From positions 1-43,994 of IMG/VR virus record IMGVR_UViG_3300042561_001754: a stretch of DNA of 43,994 nucleotides. One strand, written 5' to 3'. The stretch comes from a virus. Under the pieces are notes generated by a model that saw only the letters and a program-made list of their open reading frames with translations, did no database searches and was not told the DNA's origin. Shown here in pieces: positions 23,802 to 38,727 of this stretch. Within the stretch, counting starts at the first letter, position 1; every line of letters begins with the position of its first letter. The translations under genes were made by a program, and so were the position numbers.

Positions 23802-24540
23802 AGGTTGATACCTGTGGAAATTTAGTAGCAAATTGATTATAAATATCTGGGTAATGCTTTCTTAACTCTGCTAATCTTCCCCAGTTAGCACCTGTTGTAC
23901 CGATTGGGCATCCATTCCTAACTGTCATTCTATCAACATCATAAATAGCAGGGTATTTTAACGAGTGCATATCAATATATTCCCAGATATTTTGAGTAGT
24001 CCAAAATGCCACGGGTGAGCAACAAATCAACCCGTTTTTGAGCGTATGCACTTCACCATATTTGTTGAGATAAAATGCGCGGTTTTTGCTTTCTTGCTTA
24101 CGTATTCCCCACGCATAACCCTTAACATTATTCAATTCTTGGTATTCATTAAGCGGGTCATAAATCAGTTTTTGATTTATCAATTTATCGGCTTTTGTGT
24201 CCATCGTCCCTTCAAGGGGAACGCCATAATCCAGATACAAATGCCATAAATCACGCACTGGACAAAGTTCAATAATATTCCACCCCTGAGTTTTCAAAAA
24301 CTCTAATAATTCAATGCAATCATCCCATTCAGCAAACATTCCCTGATTTACCCAGACCAATGGACAATCTGAGTAAACTTGCCTAATCAAATGTGACATC
24401 ACTAGGCTATCTTTACCACCTGACACACTAGCGTAAACCTGATAATCGCATTGCTCTAACCATGTTTTAATTAAGTCTTTTGCCCTGGTTATTTTCTTTT
24501 TTAACCAGGGATATTGAACGCCAGATCCGTTACTTAGCAT
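23794..24540 (-). CDS. CysH-like PP-loop protein of the type IV-B locus
   Basis: 248 aa. SVSGGKDSLVMSHL (38-51) is the PP-loop that binds ATP/PAPS. The C-terminal GCPIGTTGANWGRLAELRKH contains one cysteine, unlike typical sulfonucleotide reductases. CysH-like genes are the known ancillary gene of type IV-B CRISPR systems, and their role is not understood. It overlaps csf3 by 11 bases and csf1 by 8, so it is strictly part of the operon. Enzymatic PAPS reduction is unlikely to be its job here. Confidence 0.8.
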   Translation of the reverse strand: MLSNGSGVQYPWLKKKITRAKDLIKTWLEQCDYQVYASVSGGKDSLVMSHLIRQVYSDCPLVWVNQGMFAEWDDCIELLEFLKTQGWNIIELCPVRDLWHLYLDYGVPLEGTMDTKADKLINQKLIYDPLNEYQELNNVKGYAWGIRKQESKNRAFYLNKYGEVHTLKNGLICCSPVAFWTTQNIWEYIDMHSLKYPAIYDVDRMTVRNGCPIGTTGANWGRLAELRKHYPDIYNQFATKFPQVSTYV

Positions 24541-25219
24541 AAATCACGTTATCCTTTGGCATATAGCACAACTCCTTGTTTGCCGCTAACCAAGCGGGAC
24601 TTCTCCACCCCCAAACCATCTGAGGATTATCTATTTTTTGATCAAGTAATCTAACAGGGATAGGACGCATTAATTTACTATCACGCCACAGATGGTAATT
24701 ATCGTAAATCACCCCTATTTCCCATTCCCTGACTTCACCATTGCCGTAACTACGCTTTTTCTGAATGTGAGTAACAGACGACAAAAGATTTTTGATTGCC
24801 GTTTTATCGCCTACAGCAAACCAAGAAATAGAATTAATTAACCTTGTGTAAAGCGGTAAATCATAGGATTTTTCCGCCCCTTCACCTGTTAAAAATTTGG
24901 GCTTACGCTTACCCCAGTCTAAATTGTTTTCGTGATTATCCCATCGTTTTCTATATTTGTCTGTAGCTTCACCCTGCAAAACATAGCAAGGTGAACTCAC
25001 GCACCAATATTTCTCTGACTTAATGACACCTTGTTTTAGTGGTAAATTCTGCTCAATAAACTCTTTGGTTTCTGCTACTTGATCTGGCGTGGGATTAGGT
25101 GAAAGTAGATTATTTTGTTCTAAAAGCCTATAAACTAAAATCCCTTCTAGCGATGGACTCCAGTTGTCATAAGCACCCAAAGATGTCGCCAAATGTGCTG
25201 TAATTTTTAAGTTATCCAC
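24530..25219 (-). CDS. csf3: Type IV CRISPR Csf3 (Cas5-like)
   Basis: 229 aa, GTG start overlapping the csf2 stop (GTGGATAA). The start KITAHLATSLGAYDNWSPSL then EGILVYRLLE matches the Csf3/Cas5 N-terminal RRM-like domain. The C-terminal half has the glycine-rich GNGEVREWEIG, and RPIPVRLL near the end. Cas5 proteins cap the 5' handle of the crRNA in effector complexes. Confidence 0.78.
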   Translation of the reverse strand: MDNLKITAHLATSLGAYDNWSPSLEGILVYRLLEQNNLLSPNPTPDQVAETKEFIEQNLPLKQGVIKSEKYWCVSSPCYVLQGEATDKYRKRWDNHENNLDWGKRKPKFLTGEGAEKSYDLPLYTRLINSISWFAVGDKTAIKNLLSSVTHIQKKRSYGNGEVREWEIGVIYDNYHLWRDSKLMRPIPVRLLDQKIDNPQMVWGWRSPAWLAANKELCYMPKDNVIYAK

Positions 25220-26342
25220 CCAACAAACTCCTTAACTCAGTTGATGTTTTCGCCTCACTCAAAAACTGTTGATATTGATTGATATATTCTCTATATTTAG
25301 CGTGTGCCAGGTTAAATCTATCGCTCTCTACACCACTTTCAGAACTCCACAATAAACCACGTTCTGACTCAGAACTAAACCAGAAATTCATGCTGACTCG
25401 ACCATTTCCGCGATTGCCTTTACCACCTAAATACGGGAATTGTGCAAACTTCAATAAAGTATCAAAAATCCATCCCTGCTCAACTTGCGTACAGTTCAAA
25501 TCCCATCTTGAGTATAGTTTTGCTCCTGGCATAATTAATCTATCGGAAGCAATCATTTGATCCGATTTTTTCTCTTTAGCTGCACCATCTCCCTTGAGTT
25601 GCGCCTGTACTTCTGTTGGCAGAAATTTAATCAAATTAGGATCTAAAGTTGCATCTCTGCGGGTAGTTTGATCAACCGTTAAATATTCAGACCATGTTTT
25701 CATTACTTTTCTAATCAAAGGCAAGTAGTCATTTTTTGCTTGATTCCAATTATCCAAATCTTCAGTTTTTGTGGGAGTGAATGGGTCTGAAGATAATTTA
25801 TTTTTAGCCTCAATTAGCTTCTGAATAGCGGGTTGTATTTCCGGTGGTAATATTGCTGGTATCTGATTGTAGATGTACTCTGCTGACTCATAACAAGCCA
25901 AGTAAGCAGAACCTACATTAATCCTACCTTGCACCATTTGGGCATCTTTAGAACCAAACACTTTAGCAGGTTTAGCAGTTCCTAAGACCGACAACCAAGG
26001 CATTAGAACCCGGATCTTTTTATCAAGTTCCATATCTGAAGCTGTACCGGCATCAATCCTGCCACCTGCAAACATTGTATGGTGTGTATCAGGATTTACC
26101 TGTAATCCTAATTCAGTTAACGCCGCAGCTACACCTACACGCCGTAACAAACCATTTCTCAAGGCATTTCCAGAATAGGTGAAAACACTTCTGGGATTAC
26201 CTTCAAAATCCAGTAATTTTAATGTTTTTAAATTGCTCACATTTCCCGACACTTCCCCAATATGTGAAAGTGGCGTTTGTGTCGTAATTACACAATGCAA
26301 TGTCAATCTTTCACGGTCAAAAACATCGTAATTATCAAACAT
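25212..26342 (-). CDS. csf2: Type IV CRISPR Csf2 (Cas7-like backbone)
   Basis: 376 aa. CVITTQTPLSHIGE, then FTYSGNALRNGLLRR (54-68), is the conserved Cas7/Csf2 start and helix. MFAGGRIDAG and GKGNRGNGRVSM (glycine-rich loop) follow. Csf2 forms the repeated backbone of the type IV crRNA complex. It overlaps the cas11-like stop by 8 bases (ATGTTTGA). Confidence 0.85.
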   Translation of the reverse strand: MFDNYDVFDRERLTLHCVITTQTPLSHIGEVSGNVSNLKTLKLLDFEGNPRSVFTYSGNALRNGLLRRVGVAAALTELGLQVNPDTHHTMFAGGRIDAGTASDMELDKKIRVLMPWLSVLGTAKPAKVFGSKDAQMVQGRINVGSAYLACYESAEYIYNQIPAILPPEIQPAIQKLIEAKNKLSSDPFTPTKTEDLDNWNQAKNDYLPLIRKVMKTWSEYLTVDQTTRRDATLDPNLIKFLPTEVQAQLKGDGAAKEKKSDQMIASDRLIMPGAKLYSRWDLNCTQVEQGWIFDTLLKFAQFPYLGGKGNRGNGRVSMNFWFSSESERGLLWSSESGVESDRFNLAHAKYREYINQYQQFLSEAKTSTELRSLLGG

Positions 26343-26853
26343 TTGTCACCTCAACTTCTATAAACTCTTCTGGTTCATCTAACCCTAAACTGCGGTCTTC
26401 CTCAAACCGTAATCTACAAATTACTTGAATAATCCCTGCTTTGGTTCTCAGTAGTTCAAGTACATCCCACTCGGTAAATCCGTGTGGTTGAATGTCAGCA
26501 ATTAAATCCAACCATCCCATAAATACAAGATTTTGGTCAACGGGAAGTTCCTTGATTTCCGTCGCATCTTCATTTACTCTTAGTATCCGTTGTGTTGGCT
26601 GAATTATTTTTGTTAACTCGATTGGGCGTAATTGTGAACAAAGTTTATCACAAAGTCGCTGCAAATAATCTTCTAAATTAGTTGATATTTCAGCAGAGTT
26701 TCTAATACTTGATTCCAAGTAAGTCCAGGTTTTAGTACCCATCGCTGGACTACGTTTTCTGTCACGGCACTTGAAAGCCCAATAGGTAAGACAAGCGGCT
26801 ACGCCATAACATTTGTCTCGTGTTTGAGACATTCCATAATTATTATTGTTCAT
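26335..26853 (-). CDS. Cas11-like small subunit of the type IV-B complex
   Basis: 172 aa, mostly helical: KCYGVAACLTYWAFKCRDRK at the N-terminus and FTEWDVLELLRTKAGIIQVI near the end. Position, length and gene order fit the cas11 gene of type IV-B loci. Sequence similarity alone would not prove it. First of the five csf genes, 49 bases after the 26902-27780 gene. Confidence 0.6.
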   Translation of the reverse strand: MNNNNYGMSQTRDKCYGVAACLTYWAFKCRDRKRSPAMGTKTWTYLESSIRNSAEISTNLEDYLQRLCDKLCSQLRPIELTKIIQPTQRILRVNEDATEIKELPVDQNLVFMGWLDLIADIQPHGFTEWDVLELLRTKAGIIQVICRLRFEEDRSLGLDEPEEFIEVEVTNV

Positions 26854-26901
26854 CTTATTTTCAAGAATTAACTAACATTATTATCGGAGAAAATTGGACA
26901 T

Positions 26902-27780
26902 TTAAAACGGAACTTCTACTAATTCTCCCAGCGGCTCGACTACCATCTGAGTGACAATCTTTAACGCCTGTTTAGCAACAAATCCAGCCTTAATCACCAT
27001 CCGTTCCCACAATGCCCTAAACAGTCCTTTTCGTTTCTGCCACTGCCACACAATAACTTTAGTCGCTGGCAATGGCTCTATGCTCCCAATGACTATATCG
27101 GAACTCCCATAAGAACCCCCAAAAAACTCTGAGACACCAAAAAATAAGGCGTTGTAGAGTTCAACCATCACCATACCGCCATGATCCGGCATACAGTTAA
27201 ACGCGGTTACATCCTCAGAATTTTTAAGTTTTTCGTTAATTTTGGAGCGCCTAATTTGATCAAACATCTGATAAAAAATTAATATTCTGGCAACGTCAAC
27301 CCGTTCTAATACGGGCGGTGTAGCTATTCCTTGGTTGGGAGTGCCTGTGAATGCTCCCCACATAGCGCCCTTGGGACGGTTCTCAATATCAAAATAAAAT
27401 AGTCCCCATGATAACTGCTGTTTCCGGTAGGTTCTCACGGTTTTCTGGTCATGGAACGCGCCCGTCCAATAGGTTTTTAAATACTTGTCAGTCCAGTCAA
27501 TAGGGATTGTTATTTGTACCTCACCCTGAACCGAACAGGCTAATAAATTATTCCAGTTCTCAGGAATAATCCTTTCCACGCCGTCGTTATCCTTGCGTAT
27601 AGCCTGATAGTCAGTAGCAGCCCGCCATATCAATGAGTTTAATATCCCCATGTGGGTTAGAAGTTGGCGATCGCTCATCTTGTCCGCCGCACCAAACGCC
27701 ATTTCACGGGTGTCTAAAATTTGTTGGCGGGTGAGTACGGTTGTACCTTGCAATTCTGGGAGTTTTACGTTAAGATTCAT
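26902..27780 (-). CDS. Unknown protein at the head of the type IV-B operon
   Basis: 292 aa from the ATG at 27780. The frame is open to 27861, but that part overlaps the expected leader. Starts MNLNVKLPELQGTTVLTRQQ; holds QITIPIDWTDKYLKTYWTGA and a C-terminal stretch with KAGFVAKQALKIV. No motif recognised. It shares the promoter at 27886 and lies close upstream of the cas11-like gene, so it may be a new accessory of the system or a cargo gene. Confidence 0.6.
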   Translation of the reverse strand: MNLNVKLPELQGTTVLTRQQILDTREMAFGAADKMSDRQLLTHMGILNSLIWRAATDYQAIRKDNDGVERIIPENWNNLLACSVQGEVQITIPIDWTDKYLKTYWTGAFHDQKTVRTYRKQQLSWGLFYFDIENRPKGAMWGAFTGTPNQGIATPPVLERVDVARILIFYQMFDQIRRSKINEKLKNSEDVTAFNCMPDHGGMVMVELYNALFFGVSEFFGGSYGSSDIVIGSIEPLPATKVIVWQWQKRKGLFRALWERMVIKAGFVAKQALKIVTQMVVEPLGELVEVPF

Positions 27781-27885
27781 ATATATTTCTTGATCTGTGC
27801 GGGTGAAAAATGAGCAGATTGAGCGGACTGATAAAAAACGTCTTGGTGGGTTCAGAGCCACTGGGGCGTTTTGTCCGTTATGGGT

Positions 27886-27914
27886 ATTATAGGCTATTTC
27901 GATAAGATTATCAA
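27886..27914 (-). promoter_or_regulatory. Strong sigma-70-type promoter for the type IV-B operon
   Basis: On the minus strand: TTGATA (27914-27909), 17 bases, TATAAT (27891-27886). The leader to the ATG at 27780 is about 100 bases. No other good promoter is seen before csf1, so all six genes are probably one transcript. Confidence 0.75.
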
Positions 27915-27956
27915 TATTTCAATAACCCTTGCTGTGACTAGGTTCTGGATTTTCCA

Positions 27957-28090
27957 TACAGAATCTTTTTCTTCATGCCATATAACTTAAATGCGTTTAA
28001 TCAAAAAGAGGATTTTAGGGGAAACAGATCAATCAGAAGAAAAAATTAATTAAATTCTTCACTTTTGGCAACCATGAATAAGATTCTGTA
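27957..28090. repeat. Imperfect inverted repeat bounding about 134 bases
   Basis: 27957-27977 (TACAGAATCTT...TTCATG) and 28073-28090 (CATGAATAAGATTCTGTA) are inverted copies with a 3-base difference. The interior is AT-rich and non-coding. It could be a miniature element or a structured RNA. The rest of 27781-28211 holds the promoter and the terminator at 28158. Confidence 0.45.
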
Positions 28091-28157
28091 GGGAAAGCTG
28101 GGAACGTAGGCAGGGTAAGGGTTTTGGGATTAGCCAAATAGTGATAATTGGTGAAAT

Positions 28158-28196
28158 AAAACCACTTCTCAGACAAAATCAGGAGGTGGTTTTATT
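28158..28196 (-). terminator. Rho-independent terminator of the 28212-29066 gene
   Basis: On the minus strand AAAACCACCTCC pairs with GAAGTGGTTTT, followed by ATTTC. Confidence 0.7.
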
Positions 28197-28211
28197 ATGA
28201 GTTATTGGGTT

Positions 28212-29066
28212 TTAGTTGACAGTGGGTTGAGGTTTTATTTCACCCCCTAGTTCTCTGAGGATTTGGATAGCATTGCGGCAGGTTTCGATTACTCCAGCTA
28301 TAACGCCCATCTGATAGGTTAGTCCGCCCATCCCCTTCCATGATTCTTTTCCATAGCCCATGTCTTGATCCGTATATTTAGCCTCAATTGAATAAAACAC
28401 TACGGTGTTCAACTCGTCAAACATCCATTTAGTTGCTTTGCTTAAAAAGTCAGGTTCTGTTGAACAGACAGAAATATATTCCAGTTTATCCTGTAATAAG
28501 CTGGATAAATTCGCATCAAATCCGTTCCATGCTCGTTTGTCGTCAATATTACAGGCAGTGGCGAAACATTTTACAAATTCTGTTACGACTGGTCTAACTA
28601 CATCGTCGAAAAATTCGTTTAATCCTATTCTGATTAACACACTTTCAATCGGGTATGGGTGATAAATTTTGTTACCCCAAAACTCATTTTCGTACTCATC
28701 TTGATACACAGAACAAAATTTGTACTCTATTCCATCATGATCGTCAACACAATCTTCTATATCTATGGGGATTTCAAACCATTCACCTTTTACCCTGTAC
28801 CTATGAAATGTTTTGTGCATACACTGTTCTAGCGCGTAAGCATCTATAAACCATTCTTTGTAAACGAGTTCTAGATCAAACGGCATTTGAGGCGACGTTA
28901 GTGATGCTAAACGCTTTTCGGGATCTTTGCTAAAACCAATCTTTATCCTATTCGTTCCTACTGCACGGATTATATAAACAAACCCCTCTCTGCTGTGATC
29001 TACCTTAAATTTTTGAGCTTCTTTGTCGTAAACGATGAAGTCTTTTTGAGCTAAACTATTAACCAT
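28212..29066 (-). CDS. Mug113/T5orf172-type GIY-YIG domain protein
   Basis: 284 aa. Residues about 28-97 carry GFVYIIRAVGTNRIKIGFSK then LEQCMHKTFHRYRVKGEWFE, the layout of the T5orf172/Mug113 group of GIY-YIG nucleases (YI..KIG, conserved R and E). The C-terminal 180 residues are helical and of unknown function. Such proteins are common on phages; nuclease activity is not proven. Confidence 0.75.
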   Translation of the reverse strand: MVNSLAQKDFIVYDKEAQKFKVDHSREGFVYIIRAVGTNRIKIGFSKDPEKRLASLTSPQMPFDLELVYKEWFIDAYALEQCMHKTFHRYRVKGEWFEIPIDIEDCVDDHDGIEYKFCSVYQDEYENEFWGNKIYHPYPIESVLIRIGLNEFFDDVVRPVVTEFVKCFATACNIDDKRAWNGFDANLSSLLQDKLEYISVCSTEPDFLSKATKWMFDELNTVVFYSIEAKYTDQDMGYGKESWKGMGGLTYQMGVIAGVIETCRNAIQILRELGGEIKPQPTVN

Positions 29067-29098
29067 GATCGCTTGTTCCCTAAACTAAATGAGCGGTC

Positions 29099-29153
29099 GA
29101 ATACCCGATAATAAAAACGTGGCCACTTTGAATAGTCGCGTTTTTGGGTATTC
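29099..29153. terminator. Hairpin upstream of the 28212-29066 gene
   Basis: GAATACCC (29099-29106) and GGGTATTC (29146-29153), with inner AAAACG and CGTTTT arms. It lies between the connector genes and the GIY-YIG gene, so it may terminate the former. Nothing else recognised in 29154-29272. Confidence 0.5.
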
Positions 29154-29272
29154 ATAAATAATAACATGATTTAAACTTCAATAATTACCACCAATCCCGT
29201 TCGCCCGGACATTTTTTAACCTTGTCACATGGCAACGAATAACCCGAAATATGCCCCGCCCATTTACCTCAC

Positions 29273-29686
29273 CTATAAATAATTATTCAAAACTTCTAAC
29301 TCGCTCAATCTAAAAGTTGCAATTAAATTATCAGTTTCACTAAACGGCGATATTGACTCTCTACGACGGGGGAAATATCGCCGCATTTTGTCTATAGCGC
29401 TATTGAATTTAGAATACTCCAACGCCGTTCTATCGCCTGTTGTCTTAACAGAAACCACCCACTCATACCGTTGTTCTTGTTGATTATTCAGCATCAAAGA
29501 ACTGCTAGAAACATTTTTAAACCTAACAATACTCACCTCTAACCCACCACTGACCGCGCCTTTTGGTGCTGACGGAGGTTCTACCCAAACAGCAGGTTGA
29601 CCGTTGCCAAAAGTGCCGAGTTCCTGTGCTAGTAAGTCAACAATTACGGCTCTAAGTTCCGGCGCGGCGTGGATGTTTTTGATCAT
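29273..29686 (-). CDS. Phage tail terminator/completion-like protein
   Basis: 137 aa with the alpha/beta pattern of tail-terminator proteins: N-terminal helix (AAPELRAVIVDLLAQELG), beta strands (LEVSIVRFKNVS, EWVVSVKTTGD) and helix (NSAIDKMRRYFPRR). It follows the HK97 gp10-like gene with an ATGA overlap, as in phage neck clusters. Assignment rests on order and pattern, not strong motifs. Confidence 0.5.
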   Translation of the reverse strand: MIKNIHAAPELRAVIVDLLAQELGTFGNGQPAVWVEPPSAPKGAVSGGLEVSIVRFKNVSSSSLMLNNQQEQRYEWVVSVKTTGDRTALEYSKFNSAIDKMRRYFPRRRESISPFSETDNLIATFRLSELEVLNNYL

Positions 29687-29967
29687 GATAACTTCATGGA
29701 TTGTGACGCTTTTAATGTTCCGGTTCTTTGAGGCACTTCATCTAAAAATCGTTGATTCAAATAATATGCGGTTTGGATAAATGCCATGTCTAGAGTAGTT
29801 TGGTAGTTATTTTTAAAAACCGCAGTTAAATCACTACCAACTAACGCCCGATCAGTCCATCGGTTTCCTTGTCGTTCATGAACATCATAGGCGTAAGGTG
29901 CTGACCATTGGTAATCGGCAATGGTTACGGTTAATTGCGGTGGTGTCCAACTTCTCCAAATCGGCAT
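29683..29967 (-). CDS. HK97 gp10-like head-tail connector
   Basis: 94 aa from the ATG at 29967, one base after the previous stop. WSAPYAYDVHERQGNRWTDR resembles the APYAxxVHEG loop of HK97 gp10/minor tail proteins. QTAYYLNQRFLDEVPQRTGT fits its C-terminal helix and strand. Second gene of the neck cluster. Confidence 0.6.
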   Translation of the reverse strand: MPIWRSWTPPQLTVTIADYQWSAPYAYDVHERQGNRWTDRALVGSDLTAVFKNNYQTTLDMAFIQTAYYLNQRFLDEVPQRTGTLKASQSMKLS

Positions 29968-29968
29968 A

Positions 29969-30367
29969 TTACCCAAACTCAAAAGTACCTTGTAATTCCG
30001 CCCCCAAAGCACGGGCTAAAGCCTTGGTGACTCTGGGACGTTTACCGTCGAATTGCGGTTGTAAAGTAAACTTTCCCGTCTGCTCATTACCAGTGAGAGG
30101 ATCGGTATAAACTGCTGACGCTTCCGACTGTTTGCGGATCAACTCAGTTGGCAGTAGTCGAGGTTTTACAGCATAGCCGCGTAAATTAACCACATTTGGA
30201 TTTTGCCCTGGTTCGGGCTTGACTGCGGCGTTACCCTCCATCCATGCTTCGACAACTACATCGGTTGTGGTTTGCACTGGGTTTCCTGTTTCTGGATCAG
30301 TGACAAACACGCCAGGACTGGGTAATTTAAAGGTAATTACTAAATTTGGAATAAATGGACGCGGCAT
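29969..30367 (-). CDS. Phage connector/structural protein
   Basis: 132 aa, beta-rich (PNLVITFKLPSPGVFVTDPE, VVVEAWMEG, KFTLQPQFDGKRPRV). It precedes the HK97 gp10-like gene, a slot used by head-closure or neck proteins. A frameshifted paralogue lies at 22546-23030. Its ATG (30367) lies inside the start of the divergent sigma factor gene, so the two coding regions overlap by 13 bases. Confidence 0.55.
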   Translation of the reverse strand: MPRPFIPNLVITFKLPSPGVFVTDPETGNPVQTTTDVVVEAWMEGNAAVKPEPGQNPNVVNLRGYAVKPRLLPTELIRKQSEASAVYTDPLTGNEQTGKFTLQPQFDGKRPRVTKALARALGAELQGTFEFG

Positions 30368-31473
30368 ACTTAGACAACCAGCAACTTTTAATTAATTTTC
30401 ACCAAACCAGGGACATCCGACTGAGAAATAAAATAGTTGAGATGAATATGGGACTGGTCGGTCATGTCGCAGGGAAAATGACCGCTTGCTGCACAGTCCC
30501 AAGAGAAGATCTGATACAAATTGGTGCGGAGGGGTTGATCAAAGCGGTGGAGAGGTTTGACCCTGCCAAGAAAATCAAGCTGTCCAGTTACGCTGTTCCC
30601 TTTATCTATGGTGCAATGGCGCAATTTGTCAGGGATAAAGCGCGGATAGTAAAAGTCCCGCGTCAGTTACAAGAAACTCACCAAAAACTAAAGCGATACG
30701 CCCAAAAGCACGGCGTAACTTATGAACAGGCTGCTTTAGAACTTGAGATATCCTTGCAAGTCGCCAAAGAGGCGGCGATGGCTTGCAATCAGAATAATCC
30801 TGAGTTGCCTAAACAACTGACGGCAGAACAACAAGAGGAATTAGATTCAATTCTCCCCCTACTTGACAAACTGCCAGAACTTCACGCCACAATTATCCGA
30901 GATTTATACATTGACCATATTCCCGTCAAAATGCTGTGCCAAATTCACAATATTAAATTGAGGGAGTTACGCCGCATTGAGTCTGACGCTTTACGAAAAC
31001 TAAAGTTGATGGCACTTGGGCGGGTTCAATGTCCAAATTGCAAAGATTATCAAACTATTAAAAATGGTAAACGTGACGGTAAACAGGGCTATTTGTGCAA
31101 GTCCTGCCAGACTCAATTCAGGGACAACCCCGCGCCAATTGGGAGGCGTGGCTATTCTAAGGAATTGAAGATTAGGGCAATTGATGCGATCGCTAACGGC
31201 AAAAGTTCCTACTGGTGCGAAACCTATTTAGGAATTGACCACAGCACCGCTTCCCTGTGGGCTAAGAATTATGTTATCAATGATTCAATAAATCTATCGA
31301 GAAAACGAATGACGATAGTACAACAACAATGGCAAGTTACCAGCAAGTTTACCGGGCTTGCTGACTGGGTGATGAAAACCTGTGGTGATTCTACTCATGT
31401 TGAAGCGGCGTTAAAATCGCTGCATGAAGCAATGATTCACTCACAAAAAGCGGTAGAGGTTGTTAAAAAATGA
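30355..31473 (+). CDS. Sigma factor fused to InsA-like zinc ribbon and HTH
   Basis: 372 aa. Residues 10-100 are sigma region 2 (EDLIQIGAEGLIKAVERFDP, then LSSYAVPFIYGAMAQFVRDK) and 165-220 a region 4-like HTH. Residues 226-251 are a CPNC..CKSC zinc ribbon resembling the IS1 InsA N-terminus (IKNGKRDGKQGYLC), followed by an HTH (YSKELKIRAIDAIA, STASLWAKNYV). Probably a phage late-gene sigma factor with an extra DNA-binding domain taken from a transposase. It is divergent from the connector genes and heads the packaging-side operon. Confidence 0.8.
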   Translation: MDAAYLDNQQLLINFHQTRDIRLRNKIVEMNMGLVGHVAGKMTACCTVPREDLIQIGAEGLIKAVERFDPAKKIKLSSYAVPFIYGAMAQFVRDKARIVKVPRQLQETHQKLKRYAQKHGVTYEQAALELEISLQVAKEAAMACNQNNPELPKQLTAEQQEELDSILPLLDKLPELHATIIRDLYIDHIPVKMLCQIHNIKLRELRRIESDALRKLKLMALGRVQCPNCKDYQTIKNGKRDGKQGYLCKSCQTQFRDNPAPIGRRGYSKELKIRAIDAIANGKSSYWCETYLGIDHSTASLWAKNYVINDSINLSRKRMTIVQQQWQVTSKFTGLADWVMKTCGDSTHVEAALKSLHEAMIHSQKAVEVVKK

Positions 31474-32447
31474 GTGAAGTTTTACGCCTTCCAACATCCG
31501 GCGTGTTGGCAAAGTTTCACCCTGAGAATCCCCGCGAACATTCAGAAGAGAATGATTTGCCTTGGATTCGTGACTCACTCCTAGACTTCGGGTGGTTAAT
31601 TTACCCTACAATTCAACGGAATTTAGACGGTAGTTTTGGCTATCTCATCTCTGGACATGGACGGGTTCAGGGTGCGGACTGGCTAAGTCAACAGGATGAA
31701 GACTTTTTCTTGAAAGAGTGGGAGCGGTGGATCAAAGGTACAGGGAGGGACAAAGTTTCTCACAAGCACCAAGAGCGGTTTTGCGCTGAATATTGGGCAA
31801 CTATTCCAATTGTCCCCGTAACACTCGATGAACTTAGCCAAAAATCGGCTTTGCTTCGACTTAACAACACATCCCATGATGGACGTGATGACCCCGGCAA
31901 AATAGCCGCTATCCTTGCACAAATGCCTAAGAAGCAGCTAAAAAGTGCGGGTTGGGATTCTGGCACTGCTAACTCGTTTATGCAAGCGTTTCTGGTACGG
32001 AAGACGGAAGAACCCGAAGAGTTAGAGGAACAGGAAGAAACGGGCAACTACGATTTTGATGATGATAAATATTCTGATCAAAATTCCAATAACACCACGA
32101 TTGACGTAACACCCAGTAGAAGTGATTACACGCCTCCACCACCTGCGGAAAAAGTCACAGTTGAGACTGAAAACGTGGCGGATGTTGCCAGCGTCCAAAG
32201 TATCAACTACACCGGAAAGGGCGAACAAACACAGTTTTATATCTTTCTCGATAAATCCGACTTAGCACCATTTAGATCCAAACTTGACCAACTCGCGCCC
32301 CAAGTTGGCATCTCAACTGATGGTATGGTTCAACAATACCGGAGTCAGGTAATTCTAAAGATAGTAGACATGATGATTACTGAATTAGGAGTGGCAGTAA
32401 ATGACAGCGCAGCCGAACCAATCACAGCCGAAAACATTGGATTCTGA
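31470..32447 (+). CDS. ParB/IbrB-like protein
   Basis: 325 aa. LISGHGRVQGADWL (59-72) is the ParB/Srx GHxR motif, in a 130-residue N-terminal domain. An acidic linker (EEPEELEEQEETG) and a C-terminal helical part follow. It starts in an ATGA overlap with the sigma gene. With the CysH-like gene at 33333 it resembles phage IbrB/IbrA pairs, whose molecular function is unclear. Confidence 0.7.
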   Translation: MSEVLRLPTSGVLAKFHPENPREHSEENDLPWIRDSLLDFGWLIYPTIQRNLDGSFGYLISGHGRVQGADWLSQQDEDFFLKEWERWIKGTGRDKVSHKHQERFCAEYWATIPIVPVTLDELSQKSALLRLNNTSHDGRDDPGKIAAILAQMPKKQLKSAGWDSGTANSFMQAFLVRKTEEPEELEEQEETGNYDFDDDKYSDQNSNNTTIDVTPSRSDYTPPPPAEKVTVETENVADVASVQSINYTGKGEQTQFYIFLDKSDLAPFRSKLDQLAPQVGISTDGMVQQYRSQVILKIVDMMITELGVAVNDSAAEPITAENIGF

Positions 32448-32703
32448 CAAGTTTATGGAACTGTTCAAGGCTAAAAAATACCCGCCAAAAAAGTACAAGC
32501 GAAATCTATCACCTGAATACATTGAAGATTGTCGGCGGCGATGCTTGGCAAATAAACCTTGGGAGAAGTCCACCGGACCACGCGATAAATCTAAATGTGG
32601 AAAGAACAATATCAGGCATGGCCGCCGTTCTAAAGCAATGCAAGAAGTAAACAAGGTGATCACCCAAGTAGTTTGGTTAATTCGTAATGCCAAAGAAGAA
32701 TGA
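32401..32703 (+). CDS. Small basic protein with HGRRS motif
   Basis: 100 aa. CRRRCLANKPWEKSTGPRDK, then KNNIRHGRRSKAM, a pattern common in short phage-borne proteins near terminase genes. It overlaps both neighbours (47 and 17 bases). DNA binding by its basic core is plausible. Confidence 0.5.
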   Translation: MTAQPNQSQPKTLDSDKFMELFKAKKYPPKKYKRNLSPEYIEDCRRRCLANKPWEKSTGPRDKSKCGKNNIRHGRRSKAMQEVNKVITQVVWLIRNAKEE

Positions 32704-33397
32704 CGGACTCTACGGGAAAAGGTTGTCTGGGAAATGGCGCGACGCTTTCACGGATGCGGAGGATCATGACTTTGAAACTATTGTCCGTGAAAGTTTCTAT
32801 GTTGCTCATGGTCGGATTCTTAGCCAAATTGAAGGCGCTGGTAAATTCTCCAAAGAGGGTAAAACTTTACTCCAAGCGTGTGAAATTTTAGTTGAACAAG
32901 GGGAGCTAACTTTTGAGTTTGTCGAAGAGTTAAAACTGCGGCTTTTGGGGCTTGATCTAACCGGAATGTTAGCAGCATTTCAGGGAACTTTAGCTTTAGC
33001 AGATGGCGCGGTTCGCCTATCAAAAATGGGTGATGTCCGCCGTCAGTTGGATATTTGCAAGGCGTTTATTGTTGCTGTTCTTAAAAACTCACAAGACAGA
33101 ATGGCGCGAGAATTGGCGTTAGCTTGTATTCAACAATTAAAACTAGATGCCGATTTACCCTTAGAAGAATTGGAGAAATTGATCCATGATGCACAAGAAG
33201 AAAGCGACGACAACCAAGAAGAAGATGACAGCAAAGAAACCCAAGAAGAAAACCAGCACACGGAAGAAGATGTGTTGAATTGGGGAAATTATGATGTGCC
33301 TGAAAATATTTTAGAAGGGGATATTTGGGGAGATGGAAATATCGAAAGCACTGCCACAGAAGAAATATCTGGAAGCAGCGAAACGGGCGAAAACTGA
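32687..33397 (+). CDS. Hypothetical protein with acidic tail
   Basis: 236 aa. The first 165 residues are helical (VRESFYVAHGRILSQIEGAG, MGDVRRQLDICKAFIVAVLK). The last 60 are strongly acidic low-complexity (DDNQEEDDSKETQEENQHTE). The helical part could be a small-terminase-like subunit, but no HTH is seen. It overlaps the CysH-like start by 65 bases. Confidence 0.5.
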   Translation: MPKKNDGLYGKRLSGKWRDAFTDAEDHDFETIVRESFYVAHGRILSQIEGAGKFSKEGKTLLQACEILVEQGELTFEFVEELKLRLLGLDLTGMLAAFQGTLALADGAVRLSKMGDVRRQLDICKAFIVAVLKNSQDRMARELALACIQQLKLDADLPLEELEKLIHDAQEESDDNQEEDDSKETQEENQHTEEDVLNWGNYDVPENILEGDIWGDGNIESTATEEISGSSETGEN

Positions 33398-34223
33398 TGA
33401 ATTTCAGGCACTCAAAAACAAAACCATTGAGCGTGTGCAGTCTTGGTATGACAACCCTAAAGTTAATCAGGATGTCATACCGGGTCTATGGTTTGGGTAT
33501 GGTAAAGATTCAATGGCAACTGCGATAATTTTAGAATTGGCAGAGGTTGATTATTGTAATTTAATTATTGACTGTGGGGCGGAACTCCCACAACATTATG
33601 ACGTTTTGCCAGAGTGGGAGGATTATATAAACTCATTTGGTAACGGGTTTTATTATGAAGAATATCTAACTGATGACCCGTTTCCACTAATAGTTAAAAA
33701 GTATATTGATTGGGGTAATTCCTACGGTCTGAAGGGTGAAGGTGGACAACGGTTAAACTTTTGGGATTGGGGCGATGTTGGCACGTCAATTAGTTATGAA
33801 AGTATCTACCAATTTCATCATTTGTATGGTGACGGAACCCCCAACGTAATGTATATGTGGGGTGCGCGTGGTGCTGAGGGTATGGATAGACAGTTTGAAA
33901 TTGCCCGTGCTGGAATGCTGCAATTTCATGATCAGGATAAAAAAGATTTACTGCCGTGGGTTCGCGCCTTACCGTTGGGTGATTGGCTGGATATGGATGT
34001 TTGGGCGTTACTTGTTGAGAATGAATCGCCTGTTAGTCCTATCTACTCAATGCACCAAATACCGCAGAAAAAAGGTAAGCCATTTCCTCGGACTCTGTGG
34101 TACTGCACACCGGAAACTCTATGTAGTACCTACTATAAATGGATGGCGCGTTATGCTCCGGTTCAGTTAAAAGAATTGTGTGATCTGTTCCCGGAAATCA
34201 CAGCAAGGATGACGGCTAAATAG
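33333..34223 (+). CDS. Phage CysH/IbrA-like PP-loop protein
   Basis: 296 aa. WFGYGKDSMATAI (53-65) is a variant PP-loop with YGKDS in place of SGGKDS. DCGAELPQHYDVLPEWEDYI follows. The family includes PAPS reductases, DndC and phage IbrA. It is not closely related to the CysH-like protein of the type IV-B operon (23794). Paired with a ParB-like gene, it may act in DNA modification or regulation; no product is known. Confidence 0.75.
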   Translation: MEISKALPQKKYLEAAKRAKTDEFQALKNKTIERVQSWYDNPKVNQDVIPGLWFGYGKDSMATAIILELAEVDYCNLIIDCGAELPQHYDVLPEWEDYINSFGNGFYYEEYLTDDPFPLIVKKYIDWGNSYGLKGEGGQRLNFWDWGDVGTSISYESIYQFHHLYGDGTPNVMYMWGARGAEGMDRQFEIARAGMLQFHDQDKKDLLPWVRALPLGDWLDMDVWALLVENESPVSPIYSMHQIPQKKGKPFPRTLWYCTPETLCSTYYKWMARYAPVQLKELCDLFPEITARMTAK

Positions 34224-34545
34224 GTTTGTGCATCCATCCATCCCCTTGATGAAATGGCGTACCCTCCACAAATCCCAGCCGCTTATACCATTCCGCTAAA
34301 TTGCCCTGACTTAACCCATTGCTAAAAGCCCCGCATTGTAAACAGAGTATTTTGTTTGGGTGATTGTCGAAAATTATCTGCATGAGCGATCGCCCGTGTC
34401 CCTGATTTTGAAATTCTCTGTTTACAAATAAATCAACTATCTCGATATATTGGCGGTGATTAACAGCAAACACGCCGCCAATAATCTCGCTCTCATCAGT
34501 CAGTAACTCGTAGTGAATCGCGCGGGTTTTTACTAATACCGTCAT
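34216..34545 (-). CDS. GNAT-family acetyltransferase
   Basis: 109 aa. NREFQNQGHGRSLM is the acetyl-CoA-binding QxxGxG/A motif, followed by AEWYKRLGFVE, the typical GNAT end. Substrate unknown. It converges with the CysH-like gene, overlapping its stop by 8 bases. Confidence 0.85.
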   Translation of the reverse strand: MTVLVKTRAIHYELLTDESEIIGGVFAVNHRQYIEIVDLFVNREFQNQGHGRSLMQIIFDNHPNKILCLQCGAFSNGLSQGNLAEWYKRLGFVEGTPFHQGDGWMHKPI

Positions 34546-34592
34546 TGGGAAAACTAAAAATAAACATATTTACAAAATTAGGATTGACTATT

Positions 34593-34913
34593 ATGGCTAG
34601 AGGTGGACGAGGTAGACGAACTGCTGCTGGCGGCACTCAGAATAGAGGCGGTGGAGGCGGAGGTCTAGCAACTCGCGGCGGTGCATTAGCCCGTGGCGGA
34701 ACTTCTGGACTCAAAAGAACCAGCAACGATCCTTATCGTGGTTCTGGCGCGGCTAGAACTGGGGCAGCAAGATCTGGGGGTGCTAGAACTGCATCCGGGG
34801 GCGGTGGCGTATCTTCCCGCCGTGCCAATGCAATTCGTAATTTAGCCCAACGTGGTGCAACTCCAGGAGAAAGAGCCGCAGCGCGTGCCGCAGCACAAAG
34901 ATTAGGACTTTAA
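34593..34913 (+). CDS. Gly/Arg/Ala-rich (RGG-like) protein
   Basis: 106 aa from the ATG at 34593, with AGGA upstream. Dense RG and RGG repeats (MARGGRGRRTAAGG; RGGGGGGLATRGG), then an alanine-rich basic helix (GERAAARAAAQRL). Likely binds nucleic acid. Phage genomes carry such proteins as DNA-condensing or virion proteins, but no specific role can be assigned. Confidence 0.6.
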   Translation: MARGGRGRRTAAGGTQNRGGGGGGLATRGGALARGGTSGLKRTSNDPYRGSGAARTGAARSGGARTASGGGGVSSRRANAIRNLAQRGATPGERAAARAAAQRLGL

Positions 34914-35443
34914 TACCCCACAGCAGCCGCAATATCAACACTCCCAGCATCTAAAGCCCGTTCAAATGCCACCACTTGAAACGGGCTTTGTGCTTCCCAG
35001 AAGTCGCCGTGTACATATTCTGAACCCACGCCCATAATTGGCAGGTTTAAATAATGTTGTTCCTCTAAAACTAATCCGTAAACTTGTTGACCTTGCCAAC
35101 CTTCAGCAGCAAGAAACTGGTTTAAATCAAATCCGTGTCCGTGAAGTTTCCCGTCAATTGCAAATTTTGCCGCGTCGTAGGTTTTCACGTCTGCAATTTT
35201 CGCCCAGCCAATAATTGAATTAGTTGGCACTTCTTCAGGCGAAAACCCTAACTGTGCGATCGCTTTAAATCCGGCGTTTTCCTGTTCCGTTGTGTCGTAG
35301 CTGCAAGCGTGAAACAGGATTTTCCGCTTTGATTCTGCCTGAGTTGTTAAAATAATTCTGATTTCCCCAATTGCCAGTTTTAAGGCTTCTTCGGGGCGCA
35401 TTGAGTAGGCTATGGGTTTCATGGTTGCATCCAAATAACCCAT
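34910..35443 (-). CDS. ASCH-like domain protein
   Basis: 177 aa. MRPEEALKLAIGEIRIILTT then KILFHACSYDT is a divergent version of the ASCH start (SIRPxxAxxIxxGxKTxExR...LxIHAS). IIGWAKIADVKTYDAAKF fits the second strand pair. ASCH domains bind RNA or modified nucleosides. Unlike the next ASCH gene it contains many CpG sites. Stops overlap those of the RGG-like gene. Confidence 0.55.
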   Translation of the reverse strand: MGYLDATMKPIAYSMRPEEALKLAIGEIRIILTTQAESKRKILFHACSYDTTEQENAGFKAIAQLGFSPEEVPTNSIIGWAKIADVKTYDAAKFAIDGKLHGHGFDLNQFLAAEGWQGQQVYGLVLEEQHYLNLPIMGVGSEYVHGDFWEAQSPFQVVAFERALDAGSVDIAAAVGY

Positions 35444-35497
35444 ATTATAGCCTGTTGTATGTTGCCAAAAACAAGGGGGATTTCTCCCCCAGATTGC

Positions 35498-36034
35498 CTA
35501 TCCTCTCACTTTCAGGTCAATTCCCATCTGTTCTAATGCTTGGTTAAATGCCTTGATTTTTTGGGGATCTTTACAATGTCCCCAAAAGATTGCCTGACAC
35601 CCCTTGACACCCAAAATAGGGGCAGGAAACAGCATTGATCTTGTCATCCTGTAGGCATACCCCCCATGTTGAGTTATGGCACTTTCACCACCTATACAGT
35701 CAGTTATGAAACTTGCCCCAATTATTGCCCCTCTAGCAGCTATTTTTTTGTCAATCCCATAGTCCTCAAAAAATGAGTCACTTGCCTTGCTAGAACTGCT
35801 GTGAATCAATACCCAACCTCTTTTTTTGGTGGGTGAGTTTCTGTATTCATAAGGTTTTTTACCCATGCAGATGGCATAGGCATGGGGGGCATGGATGGAA
35901 ATTGCTTTGATTTTGTCAATCACTGATTTTTTAGGTTCTTGTGGTGTGGTGTGAGTTTTTTTAGTTGCCTTGGCTCTCACCTGTGGATCTGATTGTGGAT
36001 GCAAGTCAAAAATTGATAATTGTCTGTATTTCAT
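35498..36034 (-). CDS. ASCH-domain protein (CpG-free gene)
   Basis: 178 aa from the ATG at 36034, preceded by GAGG (an ATG six codons upstream is in frame). KAISIHAPHAYAICMGKKPY then EYRNSPTKKRGWVLIHSSSS is a good ASCH signature (first strand, GxKxYEYR, IH). ASCH folds, like EVE and YTH, bind RNA or modified bases. All arginines are AGA/AGG and no codon or codon junction creates CpG. Confidence 0.75.
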   Translation of the reverse strand: MKYRQLSIFDLHPQSDPQVRAKATKKTHTTPQEPKKSVIDKIKAISIHAPHAYAICMGKKPYEYRNSPTKKRGWVLIHSSSSKASDSFFEDYGIDKKIAARGAIIGASFITDCIGGESAITQHGGYAYRMTRSMLFPAPILGVKGCQAIFWGHCKDPQKIKAFNQALEQMGIDLKVRG

Positions 36035-36051
36035 TTTTACCTCAAAATGCA

Positions 36052-36084
36052 AAAAAGTTGATCACTGTGACAAGTGATCAACTG
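36052..36084 (-). terminator. Rho-independent terminator of the ParB-like gene
   Basis: On the minus strand AGTTGATCACT and AGTGATCAACT form an 11-bp stem with a 6-base loop, followed by TTTTT. Since the ASCH gene starts only 18 bases later, it may act as an attenuator for it. Confidence 0.75.
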
Positions 36085-36099
36085 GGTTAAAATTCTTGG

Positions 36100-37098
36100 T
36101 TATGCAGCAACTTTTTGATTAATCATTTTGGGGATGACTGTGATCAACTGACTAACACAGTCATCAACAATGGTTGTCATTGACTTGCCAGACTTTTTAG
36201 CATCAACACCACTATTCAAAATCTCACTCACTGGAGAATGTTGGTTTTTTAGTTGGTCAAATATTTGCAGGACATAATGGGTTAACTCACTAGCTGATAA
36301 GTTGCCAGCTTGATTGAGATTGTTACCAATTGACTCCAAGAATGAAGCATTGCCTTGATTTGAAACTAGATGTAGCAACTTTTTGGATCTTTGTAGCTTG
36401 ACTCTCACCTGTGCAACTAATTCCAGCTTGGTTAATTCATCATCTTGACTATCTTGATTGAACAGGTTAAAAAGTGATGTTTGCCCACTTGCAGGGTTAA
36501 GAATGTTTGAAATAATCTCATCTAGTGCTTTGCTGCTCACCTGCTTACCTTTGATTAGTTCCCATACTTCCAGCTGTTCTCTAGTCCCCACACTTCCTAA
36601 AATCACACCCTTATCAATGGGAATATCACCAATGGCAACTTTGTCAAACAAGAAACTAACCAAATTTGAGAGACTTAACCCATCTTGCACAATTTTTAAT
36701 TTTGGATTGATACCAAAGTTTTTTACTTGATTAATGCTGTAACTAGAATCTCTGAAAAATTTAGCTGCATCAACAGCAGTTCCCATGCCTTCTGCAATGT
36801 TAGCTAATGCACCTGTTAACCTAGCTTCTGTGTGATTTTGGGCATCTATGAACCTACATAAAATTTTCTCAACAGTTCCCAATTTTTTAGCTAGGTTAAC
36901 TCTGTTATGTCCATTGACTACATAAATTTTCCCATCTGTGGGATCTCCCCATACTAGAACAATCCCAGACAAGTAAACATTCCAAGAATCAATATTTGAT
37001 AATGAACCAGTAGCACCTGTTGAATTGTGGACTAGTTTGTATTGAAATCTTTTGGGGTCTAAATTTAGTTCTGTGGTGTTAATTTCTGCTACTCTCAT
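36100..37098 (-). CDS. ParB/Srx-like nuclease-domain protein (CpG-free gene)
   Basis: 332 aa from the ATG at 37098 (chosen for its position after the shared leader; AGGAAACAAAAA upstream). IYVVNGHNRVNLAKKLG is the ParB-like GHxR motif. LANIAEGMGTAVDAAKFFRD resembles the segment following it in phage ParB-like/methylase-associated proteins. The C-terminal half is helical. No HTH seen. Transcribed from the promoter at 37135. Confidence 0.7.
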   Translation of the reverse strand: MRVAEINTTELNLDPKRFQYKLVHNSTGATGSLSNIDSWNVYLSGIVLVWGDPTDGKIYVVNGHNRVNLAKKLGTVEKILCRFIDAQNHTEARLTGALANIAEGMGTAVDAAKFFRDSSYSINQVKNFGINPKLKIVQDGLSLSNLVSFLFDKVAIGDIPIDKGVILGSVGTREQLEVWELIKGKQVSSKALDEIISNILNPASGQTSLFNLFNQDSQDDELTKLELVAQVRVKLQRSKKLLHLVSNQGNASFLESIGNNLNQAGNLSASELTHYVLQIFDQLKNQHSPVSEILNSGVDAKKSGKSMTTIVDDCVSQLITVIPKMINQKVAA

Positions 37099-37134
37099 TT
37101 TTTGTTTCCTGTTGTTTTTTTCTCTCACTCTTAT

Positions 37135-37163
37135 ATAGTGACAGGATAACAAATATTTGTCAA
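37135..37163 (-). promoter_or_regulatory. Shared-design promoter 1 (ParB-like gene)
   Basis: TTGACA (37163-37158), 17 bases, CACTAT (37140-37135). The palindrome ACAAATATTTGT starts within the -35. The leader holds GAGTGAGAGAAAAAA and AGGAAAC before the ATG. Confidence 0.75.
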
Positions 37164-37201
37164 GGGGTTTTGGAAAGTTTTTTTGGAAATTTTTTTTGAC
37201 T

Positions 37202-37238
37202 AAAAAAATACCCTGGACTATCACTAATCCAGGGTATT
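37202..37238 (-). terminator. Terminator after the first 85-aa gene
   Basis: ATACCCTGGA and TCCAGGGTAT stem (minus strand), followed by seven T. A second copy lies at 37619-37655. Confidence 0.85.
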
Positions 37239-37255
37239 ATGCTTAGGTTTTATGT

Positions 37256-37513
37256 TTAGAAAACTACTGAATACTTCCTAGGTGGTCTTTTTATGGTAAG
37301 TTCTTGTCTGTAAGAGACTTTTAGAGGTCTCCAGTTTATTGGAGTTACTACTGCCCCTTTTTTCAGTTTTCTACTTCTTCCTTGATAATCTGTGTAGTCT
37401 GTATTCAATTGTTCACAGGCATATCTTGTTAATTGCTCATTATCCCAGCCACTTACTCCAGTGATGTCAATTGTGATTTGTTTAGATTCTATGGTTTCAA
37501 ATGTAACAAACAT
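37256..37513 (-). CDS. 85-aa hypothetical protein, copy 1 (CpG-free)
   Basis: MFVTFETIESKQITIDITGV, then a basic half (QGRSRKLKKGAVVTPINWRP). Looks like a compact beta/alpha protein; family unknown. Identical protein encoded by 37673-37930. Own promoter at 37552 and own terminator at 37202. Confidence 0.65.
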   Translation of the reverse strand: MFVTFETIESKQITIDITGVSGWDNEQLTRYACEQLNTDYTDYQGRSRKLKKGAVVTPINWRPLKVSYRQELTIKRPPRKYSVVF

Positions 37514-37551
37514 TGTTTTTGTTTCCTGTTGTTTTTTTCTCTCACTCTTAT

Positions 37552-37580
37552 ATAGTAACAGGATAACAAATATTTGTCAA
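37552..37580 (-). promoter_or_regulatory. Shared-design promoter 2 (85-aa gene copy 1)
   Basis: TTGACA (37580-37575), 17 bases, TACTAT (37557-37552), with the same palindrome and leader as promoter 1. Confidence 0.75.
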
Positions 37581-37618
37581 GGGGTTTTGGAAAGTTTTTT
37601 TGGAAATTTTTTTTGACT

Positions 37619-37655
37619 AAAAAAATACCCTGGACTATCACTAATCCAGGGTATT
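37619..37655 (-). terminator. Terminator after the second 85-aa gene
   Basis: Exact copy of the terminator at 37202-37238, 417 bp away. Confidence 0.85.
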
Positions 37656-37672
37656 ATGCTTAGGTTTTATGT

Positions 37673-37930
37673 TTAGAAAACTACTGAATACTTCCTAGGT
37701 GGTCTTTTTATGGTAAGTTCTTGTCTGTAAGAGACTTTTAGAGGTCTCCAGTTTATTGGAGTTACTACTGCCCCTTTTTTCAGTTTTCTACTTCTTCCTT
37801 GATAATCTGTGTAGTCTGTATTCAATTGTTCACAGGCATATCTTGTTAATTGCTCATTATCCCAGCCACTTACTCCAGTGATGTCAATTGTGATTTGTTT
37901 AGATTCTATGGTTTCAAATGTAACAAACAT
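37673..37930 (-). CDS. 85-aa hypothetical protein, copy 2 (CpG-free)
   Basis: Same protein as 37256-37513, also identical in DNA as far as read. Two copies with separate promoters should double the dose. Arginines use AGA/AGG only. Confidence 0.65.
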   Translation of the reverse strand: MFVTFETIESKQITIDITGVSGWDNEQLTRYACEQLNTDYTDYQGRSRKLKKGAVVTPINWRPLKVSYRQELTIKRPPRKYSVVF

Positions 37931-37968
37931 TGTTTTTGTTTCCTGTTGTTTTTTTCTCTCACTCTTAT

Positions 37969-37997
37969 ATAGTAACAGGATAACAAATATTTGTCAA
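37969..37997 (-). promoter_or_regulatory. Shared-design promoter 3 (85-aa gene copy 2)
   Basis: TTGACA (37997-37992), 17 bases, TACTAT (37974-37969). Same leader as promoters 1 and 2. Confidence 0.75.
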
Positions 37998-38035
37998 GGG
38001 GTTTTGGAAAGTTTTTTTGGAAATTTTTTTATCAT

Positions 38036-38060
38036 TAAAAACCCTCAAAATAGAGGGTTC
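38036..38060 (-). terminator. Terminator after the 68-aa gene
   Basis: On the minus strand AACCCTC and GAGGGTTTT stem with TTTTA following. It separates this CpG-rich gene from the CpG-free block. Confidence 0.7.
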
Positions 38061-38066
38061 ACCGCA

Positions 38067-38273
38067 TCATTCACCTTGTTTTTCTTCCTTCAACTTTGCC
38101 CGTTTCTGTCGCATAAATTCCCGCATATATTCCCGTTTATACTCCTTGCGTTCGCGGTCTAATTCCCGTTCACGTTCCCTGACTTCAGGCTTCTGGCGGT
38201 AACGCTTGCGTCGCGCCTTGCCTTTTTCGGATTTCTCGTAATTCTGTTGAGCTTTTTTTAAATTGTCGTCCAT
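38067..38273 (-). CDS. Highly charged coiled-coil protein
   Basis: 68 aa, almost entirely Arg/Lys/Glu (KARRKRYRQKPEVRERERELDRE). Single long helix, probably nucleic-acid or protein binding. AGGAG lies 11 bases before the ATG. Rich in CGN arginine codons, in sharp contrast to its CpG-free neighbours on both sides. Confidence 0.55.
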   Translation of the reverse strand: MDDNLKKAQQNYEKSEKGKARRKRYRQKPEVRERERELDRERKEYKREYMREFMRQKRAKLKEEKQGE

Positions 38274-38328
38274 CGTGCTATACTCCTAATATTCCTGTTG
38301 AACTCTCACAAATTTCGTAGGGATAAAG

Positions 38329-38354
38329 AAAGCACACCTCATGAGGTGTGCTTT
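38329..38354 (-). terminator. Palindromic terminator of the 77-aa gene
   Basis: AAAGCACACCTCAT/ATGAGGTGTGCTTT is a perfect palindrome, followed on the minus strand by CTTTATC. Confidence 0.65.
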
Positions 38355-38358
38355 TGGT

Positions 38359-38592
38359 TTATGTGTTTCTTAATCCCTTGCCCAACAATATCCCATTAGC
38401 ATCAAATACCTCCACATATTTCACTGTTTCTATTCTGTCAGATGGTCTCAGCCCAACATTAAATTTTTTCCCCATGTAATAATCAAGAATTTCCTCTAAA
38501 GTGCCATTGATCCTAGCTGTCCAGGTGTTGCCTGTTTCTGTCATGATTTTAGCTACTTTGCCAGAATCTTTCATGTTGATGTAGTAAGTCAT
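38359..38592 (-). CDS. 77-aa hypothetical protein (CpG-free)
   Basis: MTYYINMKDSGKVAKIMTET, then TLEEILDYYMGKKF and a beta end (YVEVFDANGILLGKGL). Resembles a small swapped-hairpin fold; family unknown. Promoter at 38636 has the same design as the three at 37-38 kb, so it belongs to the same regulon. Confidence 0.6.
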   Translation of the reverse strand: MTYYINMKDSGKVAKIMTETGNTWTARINGTLEEILDYYMGKKFNVGLRPSDRIETVKYVEVFDANGILLGKGLRNT

Positions 38593-38635
38593 TTTTTGTC
38601 CTGCTAGTTGCTAGTTGTTTTTCTCTCACTCCATG

Positions 38636-38664
38636 ATAGTAACAGTCTAACAAAATATTGTCAA
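38636..38664 (-). promoter_or_regulatory. Shared-design promoter 4 (77-aa gene)
   Basis: TTGACA (38664-38659), 17 bases, TACTAT (38641-38636), with AGTGAGAGAAAAACAAC in the leader. The palindrome is slightly changed (ACAATATTTTGT), otherwise as in promoters 1-3. Confidence 0.75.
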
Positions 38665-38727
38665 TAGGTTTTAGAAAATTTTTTCAAATTAGGGAAAGCT
38701 TACTGAAACAGAATCCTGGGTATCGGT

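Follow-up and report, generated by a model that had tools for sequence, protein, structure and literature searches.

Gene content of two CpG-free blocks in a virus genome

We analysed IMG/VR virus record IMGVR_UViG_3300042561_001754, a stretch of 43,994 bases (the window), in which two blocks of genes lack the dinucleotide CG (CpG) altogether. Block 1 spans 35398..38062 (2665 bases) and block 2 spans 38317..38723 (407 bases). All 1,511 CG dinucleotides of the window lie outside these blocks, and no other CG-free run exceeds 188 bases. The 2.66 kb and 0.4 kb without CG that an earlier note on this DNA had described were thus confirmed. The limits of block 1 require a correction, as the block also includes the 5'-terminal 46 nt of a CpG-normal neighbour gene (34910..35443, minus strand, 26 CG). 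Like the window, all contigs considered below are virus records of uncertain completeness.

The genes in the blocks are all encoded on the minus strand and contain 0 CG. Block 1 carries an open reading frame (ORF) of 178 amino acids (aa) at 35498..36034, a ParB-like ORF of 332 aa at 36100..37098 and two tandem copies of an 85-aa ORF (first copy 37673..37930, second copy 37256..37513) with a repeat unit of 417 bases. Block 2 carries a 77-aa ORF (38359..38592). Promoters of the form TTGACA-17-TACTAT...GTGAGAG were found on the same strand at 37539..37580 and 37956..37997. The 77-aa gene has a cassette promoter at 38623..38664, and the ParB-like gene has the variant TTGACA-17-CACTAT...GTGAGAG at 37122..37163. 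The earlier note had proposed that the CpG-free genes mostly share promoters. This holds for four of the five genes it listed; the promoter of the ParB-like gene is a one-base variant, and the 178-aa ORF has no promoter of its own in the window. Terminator-like stems on the minus strand follow the 178-aa ORF (35475..35490, CpG-free), the ParB-like gene (36056..36083, CpG-free), the second and first 85-aa copies (37207..37238 and 37624..37655) and the 77-aa gene (38328..38355, a near-symmetric stem that the scan assigns to the plus strand). Altogether 13 terminator-like stems were found compared to 3.1 expected in shuffled sequences. Rfam gave no match in the window. Between the two blocks lies a 68-aa gene (38067..38273, minus strand) without a cassette promoter, which serves as an internal control. 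It was described as CpG-rich, and indeed it has 17 CG in 207 bases, with 12 of its 13 arginine residues encoded by CGN.

The structure model of the ParB-like protein (predicted local distance difference test (pLDDT) 78, predicted template modelling score (pTM) 0.60, 10 homologues) matched structures of ParB, Noc and KorB (Foldseek E 6e-6 to 7e-4, template modelling score up to 0.66 by target) rather than a known base reader. The predicted fold is that of a ParB N-terminal domain plus DNA-binding domain, and a GHNR motif is conserved at the level of sequence. The 178-aa ORF matches PHROG 3193 (E 6.9e-17). Its label as ASCH-like comes from a motif resemblance and was not confirmed, as the ORF had no Pfam or PDB match and its structure model reached a pLDDT of 33. 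Five cassette proteins from the window and a related contig, G003, had no match among the PADLOC defence models.

The absence of CG cannot be attributed to chance or to the encoded proteins. In the DNA adjoining the blocks the ratio of observed to expected CG (O/E) is ~0.9-1.1, and at the CG rate of the window a CG-free run of 2665 bases has a probability of ~10^-40. When the proteins were kept fixed and codons were drawn from the codon usage of the window, 84.6 ± 7.2 CG were expected in the four distinct genes (minimum 60, 2000 draws), compared to 0 observed. Shuffling each gene's own synonymous codons gave on average 29.3 CG for the set (minimum 16 in 5000 shuffles), and zero was never reached. 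Since these shuffles still yield CG, the junctions between codons avoid it as well. The avoidance at the level of DNA, codon junctions included, is therefore upheld.

CpG-free cassettes recur throughout a phage family

Protein and promoter searches of IMG/VR identified another 11 contigs that belong to the phage family of the window and come from 10 metagenome datasets. These are strains of one family and hence not fully independent. A sequence error is excluded, since these contigs show the same composition. Every related contig contains one-gene cassettes with the near-consensus sigma-70 promoter TTGACA-N17-TACTAT-N6-GTGAGAG, and in all contigs each matched cassette promoter falls in a CG-free run. 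In 43 cassette instances, which form 17 gene clusters, 25 CG were observed compared to 632 predicted from base composition. With one cassette per cluster, these numbers are 10 and 256. The cassettes encode the ParB-like and ASCH-like proteins, a DnaJ-domain protein and many small proteins without assigned function. The backbone genes, including the 68-aa gene, are CpG-normal. GC content is.37/.35 in cassettes and.41/.43 in the backbone, with a CG O/E of 0 and.87, respectively. A cassette of G003 (20638-21021) is likewise CG-free under another promoter of the sigma-70 type; the avoidance is therefore not caused by the promoter sequence as such. Among the motifs other than CG that were tested for avoidance, only GGCC was avoided, and here the backbone is affected too. 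This strong depletion (O/E 0.17 in the backbone and 0.37 in cassettes, all contigs) is an ordinary restriction-avoidance signal.

Close relatives were checked for CpG-normal versions of the genes and the opposite was seen, as the homologues in G003, G006, G007 and others are nearly CpG-free. The distant homologues are CpG-normal. CG O/E is 0.82-1.0 for ParB-like homologues at ~40% identity in other phage contigs, and for ASCH-like homologues it is 0.93 in contig L042 and 0.82 on a Calothrix plasmid (14 CG). The shared avoidance for which the earlier note proposed to search thus exists among close relatives and ends there. Since these two groups differ, the CpG purge is a property of the cassettes of this phage family and not of the protein families. 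Searches of plasmids with cassette DNA gave no match and searches of phages gave short matches only. A scan of genome contigs with the ParB protein gave no match, and host genomes were thereby not effectively searched. The longest CpG-free runs in the first 50 kb of the Nodularia phage 2AV2 (305 bases) and the Aphanizomenon phage CL131 (266 bases) were unremarkable.

Comparison of the window with G003 revealed how the cassettes are inserted. Two late genes that abut at 29969-30012 of the window are separated in G003, where two cassettes (37562-38363) are bordered precisely by the stop codon of one gene and the start codon of the other. The cassettes have their own promoter and terminator (consensus matches), they are inserted between backbone genes at a site that is empty in a relative, and their base composition deviates. 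By this anatomy they are phage morons. Like other morons, they are units of a single gene with a sigma-70-type promoter and a terminator, lie between late genes, vary among relatives and have empty counterparts of their sites. They differ in that all cassettes are purged of CpG and have one promoter block in common. No moron set of this composition is known to us, and no description of CpG-free morons was found in the open-access literature. A spread of CG depletion into the flank was not seen in the one comparable gene: in G003, a backbone gene that adjoins a cassette has 4 CG in its first 75 bases, compared to 2-6 in orthologues with no cassette next to them. Separately, a block of late genes is inverted between the window (29975-34620) and G003 (32930-37599) or G007 (25413-30019). 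Its breakpoints lie near repeated cassettes, which suggests recombination between cassette repeats.

The CpG purge results from selection

The ParB-ASCH cassettes of the window and G003 share 85.4% identity (236 differences), similar to the 87-93% of backbone stretches. In these cassettes CG occurs at one differing place and at no shared place, whereas the reversed pair GC occurs at 29 differing places; in the backbone the two pairs differ at similar frequencies. Only 1 of 115 synonymous changes in the cassettes touches CG, whereas 14 backbone genes have 220 such changes among 826. The purge was thus upheld throughout the divergence of these phages.

The earlier note had offered two origins for the avoidance, one of them a CpG-methylating, deaminating host. 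Mutational decay of this kind would be expected to leave T in place of C. At four-fold sites before G the frequencies are A.447, G.138 and T.412, and before other bases they are A.334, G.097 and T.335. C before G is thus replaced in proportion by A, G and T, and methylation with deamination was rejected as the main process. Arginine remained encoded by AGR (AGR to CGN 104 : 5 in cassettes, 78 : 172 in control genes). In aligned cassettes, mismatches of TG with CA and those of the mirror type, GT with AC, are similarly rare, so that there is no TG/CA signature of decay. CA/TG is indeed raised 1.19-1.28 fold in cassettes relative to the backbone, as decay would predict, but CC and AG/CT are raised as well, and CG is near zero and not merely reduced. 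Decay in a CpG-methylating host is extremely improbable; the CpG purge results from selection.

Possible agents of the CpG purge

As to the agent, the explanation that we favour, tentatively and with a confidence somewhat short of even, is that the moron cassettes were purged by selection under a CpG-directed agent that acts on their expression. The cassettes are single genes, provided with a strong sigma-70-type promoter and a terminator and inserted between late genes. Selection removed CpG from the whole unit (promoter, leader, gene and terminator), and the phage lineage has kept the purged state. The agent would act on the expression of these units and not on the survival of the DNA, because a CpG-cutting nuclease would meet over a thousand other sites. 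Its likeliest form would be a CpG-directed shut-off, either by an endoribonuclease that cuts CpG-containing RNA or by a terminator that halts RNA polymerase on reaching CpG. Such a shut-off may operate during periods that require moron expression, for example in the lysogen or when the host or a rival phage shuts expression down. CpG-free units would keep working during this time, and transcription of the CpG-normal late genes would fall into a different phase, perhaps under the phage's own sigma factor. A further-reaching and more doubtful form of this idea is a natural CpG-free expression channel, in which transcripts with CpG are silenced or degraded by a factor of the phage or the host, and a whole set of accessory genes has been recoded without CpG so as to be the only ones expressed meanwhile. 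The phage has its own gene for a sigma-70 factor with a putative zinc ribbon, which counts in favour of an action on expression. This gene (window 30355-31473, plus strand) contains regions 2 and 4, with a weak InsA-type zinc ribbon match on the C-terminal side. The phage family probably infects cyanobacteria, as suggested by HIP1 sites in the backbone and matches to Calothrix and Microcystis plasmids.

A precedent from engineering exists. In single-protein production with MazF, genes without ACA stay expressible while the sequence-specific ribonuclease destroys other messages. By analogy, genes without a short sequence could stay expressible here, and the engineered system shows that such a scheme can work. 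The difference is that MazF/ACA-less production is engineered, with the triplet ACA and a known ribonuclease, whereas the cassettes are natural, the motif is CG and the ribonuclease is only proposed. Vertebrate viruses avoid CpG owing to ZAP, and a bacterial counterpart of ZAP would be new. A near-absolute and maintained avoidance of one dinucleotide, restricted to separate expression units of an otherwise normal genome, argues for a CpG-directed process, as yet undescribed, in cyanobacteria or the phages that infect them. In addition, CpG-free composition offers a signature by which morons, and genes that may serve in defence, can be recognised. At the level of transcription, a precedent for a CpG-sensing terminator is Alc of phage T4, which is inhibited by CpG methylation (PMC8056088, PMC2988021). 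Both cases would involve discrimination of templates by the state of cytosine or CpG at the level of the phage. In T4, however, modified cytosine provides the protection, whereas here CpG is absent from a few genes only; no Alc homologue was identified.

Several observations weigh against an agent that acts on cassette expression. CpG-normal genes stand behind consensus-like promoters at 12432 in the window and at 14915, 15795, 47308 and 47625 in G003. Strong sigma-70 transcription alone is therefore not the rule, and a sigma-70 promoter was rejected as the determinant of CpG avoidance. We know of no ribonuclease that cuts at CpG, and no CpG-directed ribonuclease, terminator or silencer was seen among the annotated phage genes. 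Effects on RNA and on the template are inseparable, because the promoters are copies of each other and CG is its own reverse complement; besides the copied promoter, the cassettes hold almost no untranscribed part. Finally, a 122-aa J-domain-like cassette of contig G004 holds 5 CG, mostly in CGT arginine codons. This cassette may be a recent capture in which the purge is incomplete.

The cassettes could also evolve mostly in a hidden donor pool, that is, in another plasmid or phage in which CpG-specific restriction, for example, makes CpG lethal, and be delivered repeatedly to this family. They are variable and interchangeable and have near-identical promoters, the place of the window's second 85-aa copy is taken by a 98-aa gene in contig G002, and the G003 cassette at 20638-21021, with its different promoter, is also CpG-free, all of which would fit such a source. 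However, the ParB-like and ASCH-like genes adjoin each other in the window, G003 and G007, their divergence (85.4% identity) resembles that of the backbone (87-93%), and no CpG-free homologues were found outside the family in viral, phage and plasmid collections. We consider this origin unlikely. Somewhat less credit is given to a modification of the template, by which CpG cytosines in phage or prophage DNA would be methylated or otherwise modified so that transcription is blocked or marked, with CpG-free units remaining readable or unmarked. Transcription control that responds to modified cytosine has a precedent in T4 Alc (PMC8056088, PMC2988021), and G007 encodes a C5 cytosine methyltransferase of DrmMII type (L028 2896-3927, minus strand) close to an integrase-like gene. 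The window and the G003 contig, both of them fragments, showed no such methyltransferase gene, and the C-to-T footprint expected of methylation is absent. Template modification therefore appears improbable.

The second origin offered in the earlier note was escape from a CpG-directed nuclease. Complete avoidance of CG looks like the avoidance of restriction sites, and GGCC is indeed depleted genome-wide (O/E 0.17). In phages and plasmids, restriction-site avoidance likewise involves selection against a short palindrome, but it usually affects the whole genome or the leading region, whereas here scattered expression units are affected in a CpG-normal genome. An attack on the phage by such a nuclease or restriction system fits poorly with the 1,511 CG elsewhere in the contig, 17 of them in the gene between the blocks. 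It would require that only the cassettes are exposed, for example by entering first, and in G003 and G007 they lie at several separate places. The depletion does not extend across all exposed DNA, as restriction avoidance would require, and nuclease escape is very unlikely. Equally little weight is given to pausing and backtracking of RNA polymerase at template CpG, which strongly transcribed units might avoid in cyanobacteria, as these lack Gre factors. The RNA polymerase of E. coli shows CpG pausing and G-to-A errors (PMC4457086), and Gre factors are missing from cyanobacteria (PMC7026648). Yet cyanobacterial RNA polymerase reportedly resists most pausing signals (PMC7026648), the related pause motif G-N8/9-TG is not avoided in the cassettes, and other phage genes behind sigma-70-like promoters retain CpG.

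Other elements on the phage contigs

The window contains a CRISPR array of 20 repeats (GTTTCAATCCCTCAGAAGGGATTAGTCATCCTGCAAG) at 15022-16454 beside a gene for a Cas12u2/c2c8-like protein (16738-18606, minus strand). The spacers of this array had no match among the relatives retrieved, and the repeat gave no identification of the host. A Type IV Cas7 (csf2) lies at 23794-26342 (minus strand) with a CysH/PAPS-reductase-like gene close by. The phage therefore carries two CRISPR-Cas types. In G003, the terminase (L027 484-3054 and 791-1612) contains an insert of ~357 aa with an overlapping antisense ORF of 273 aa, resembling an intein or a homing element.

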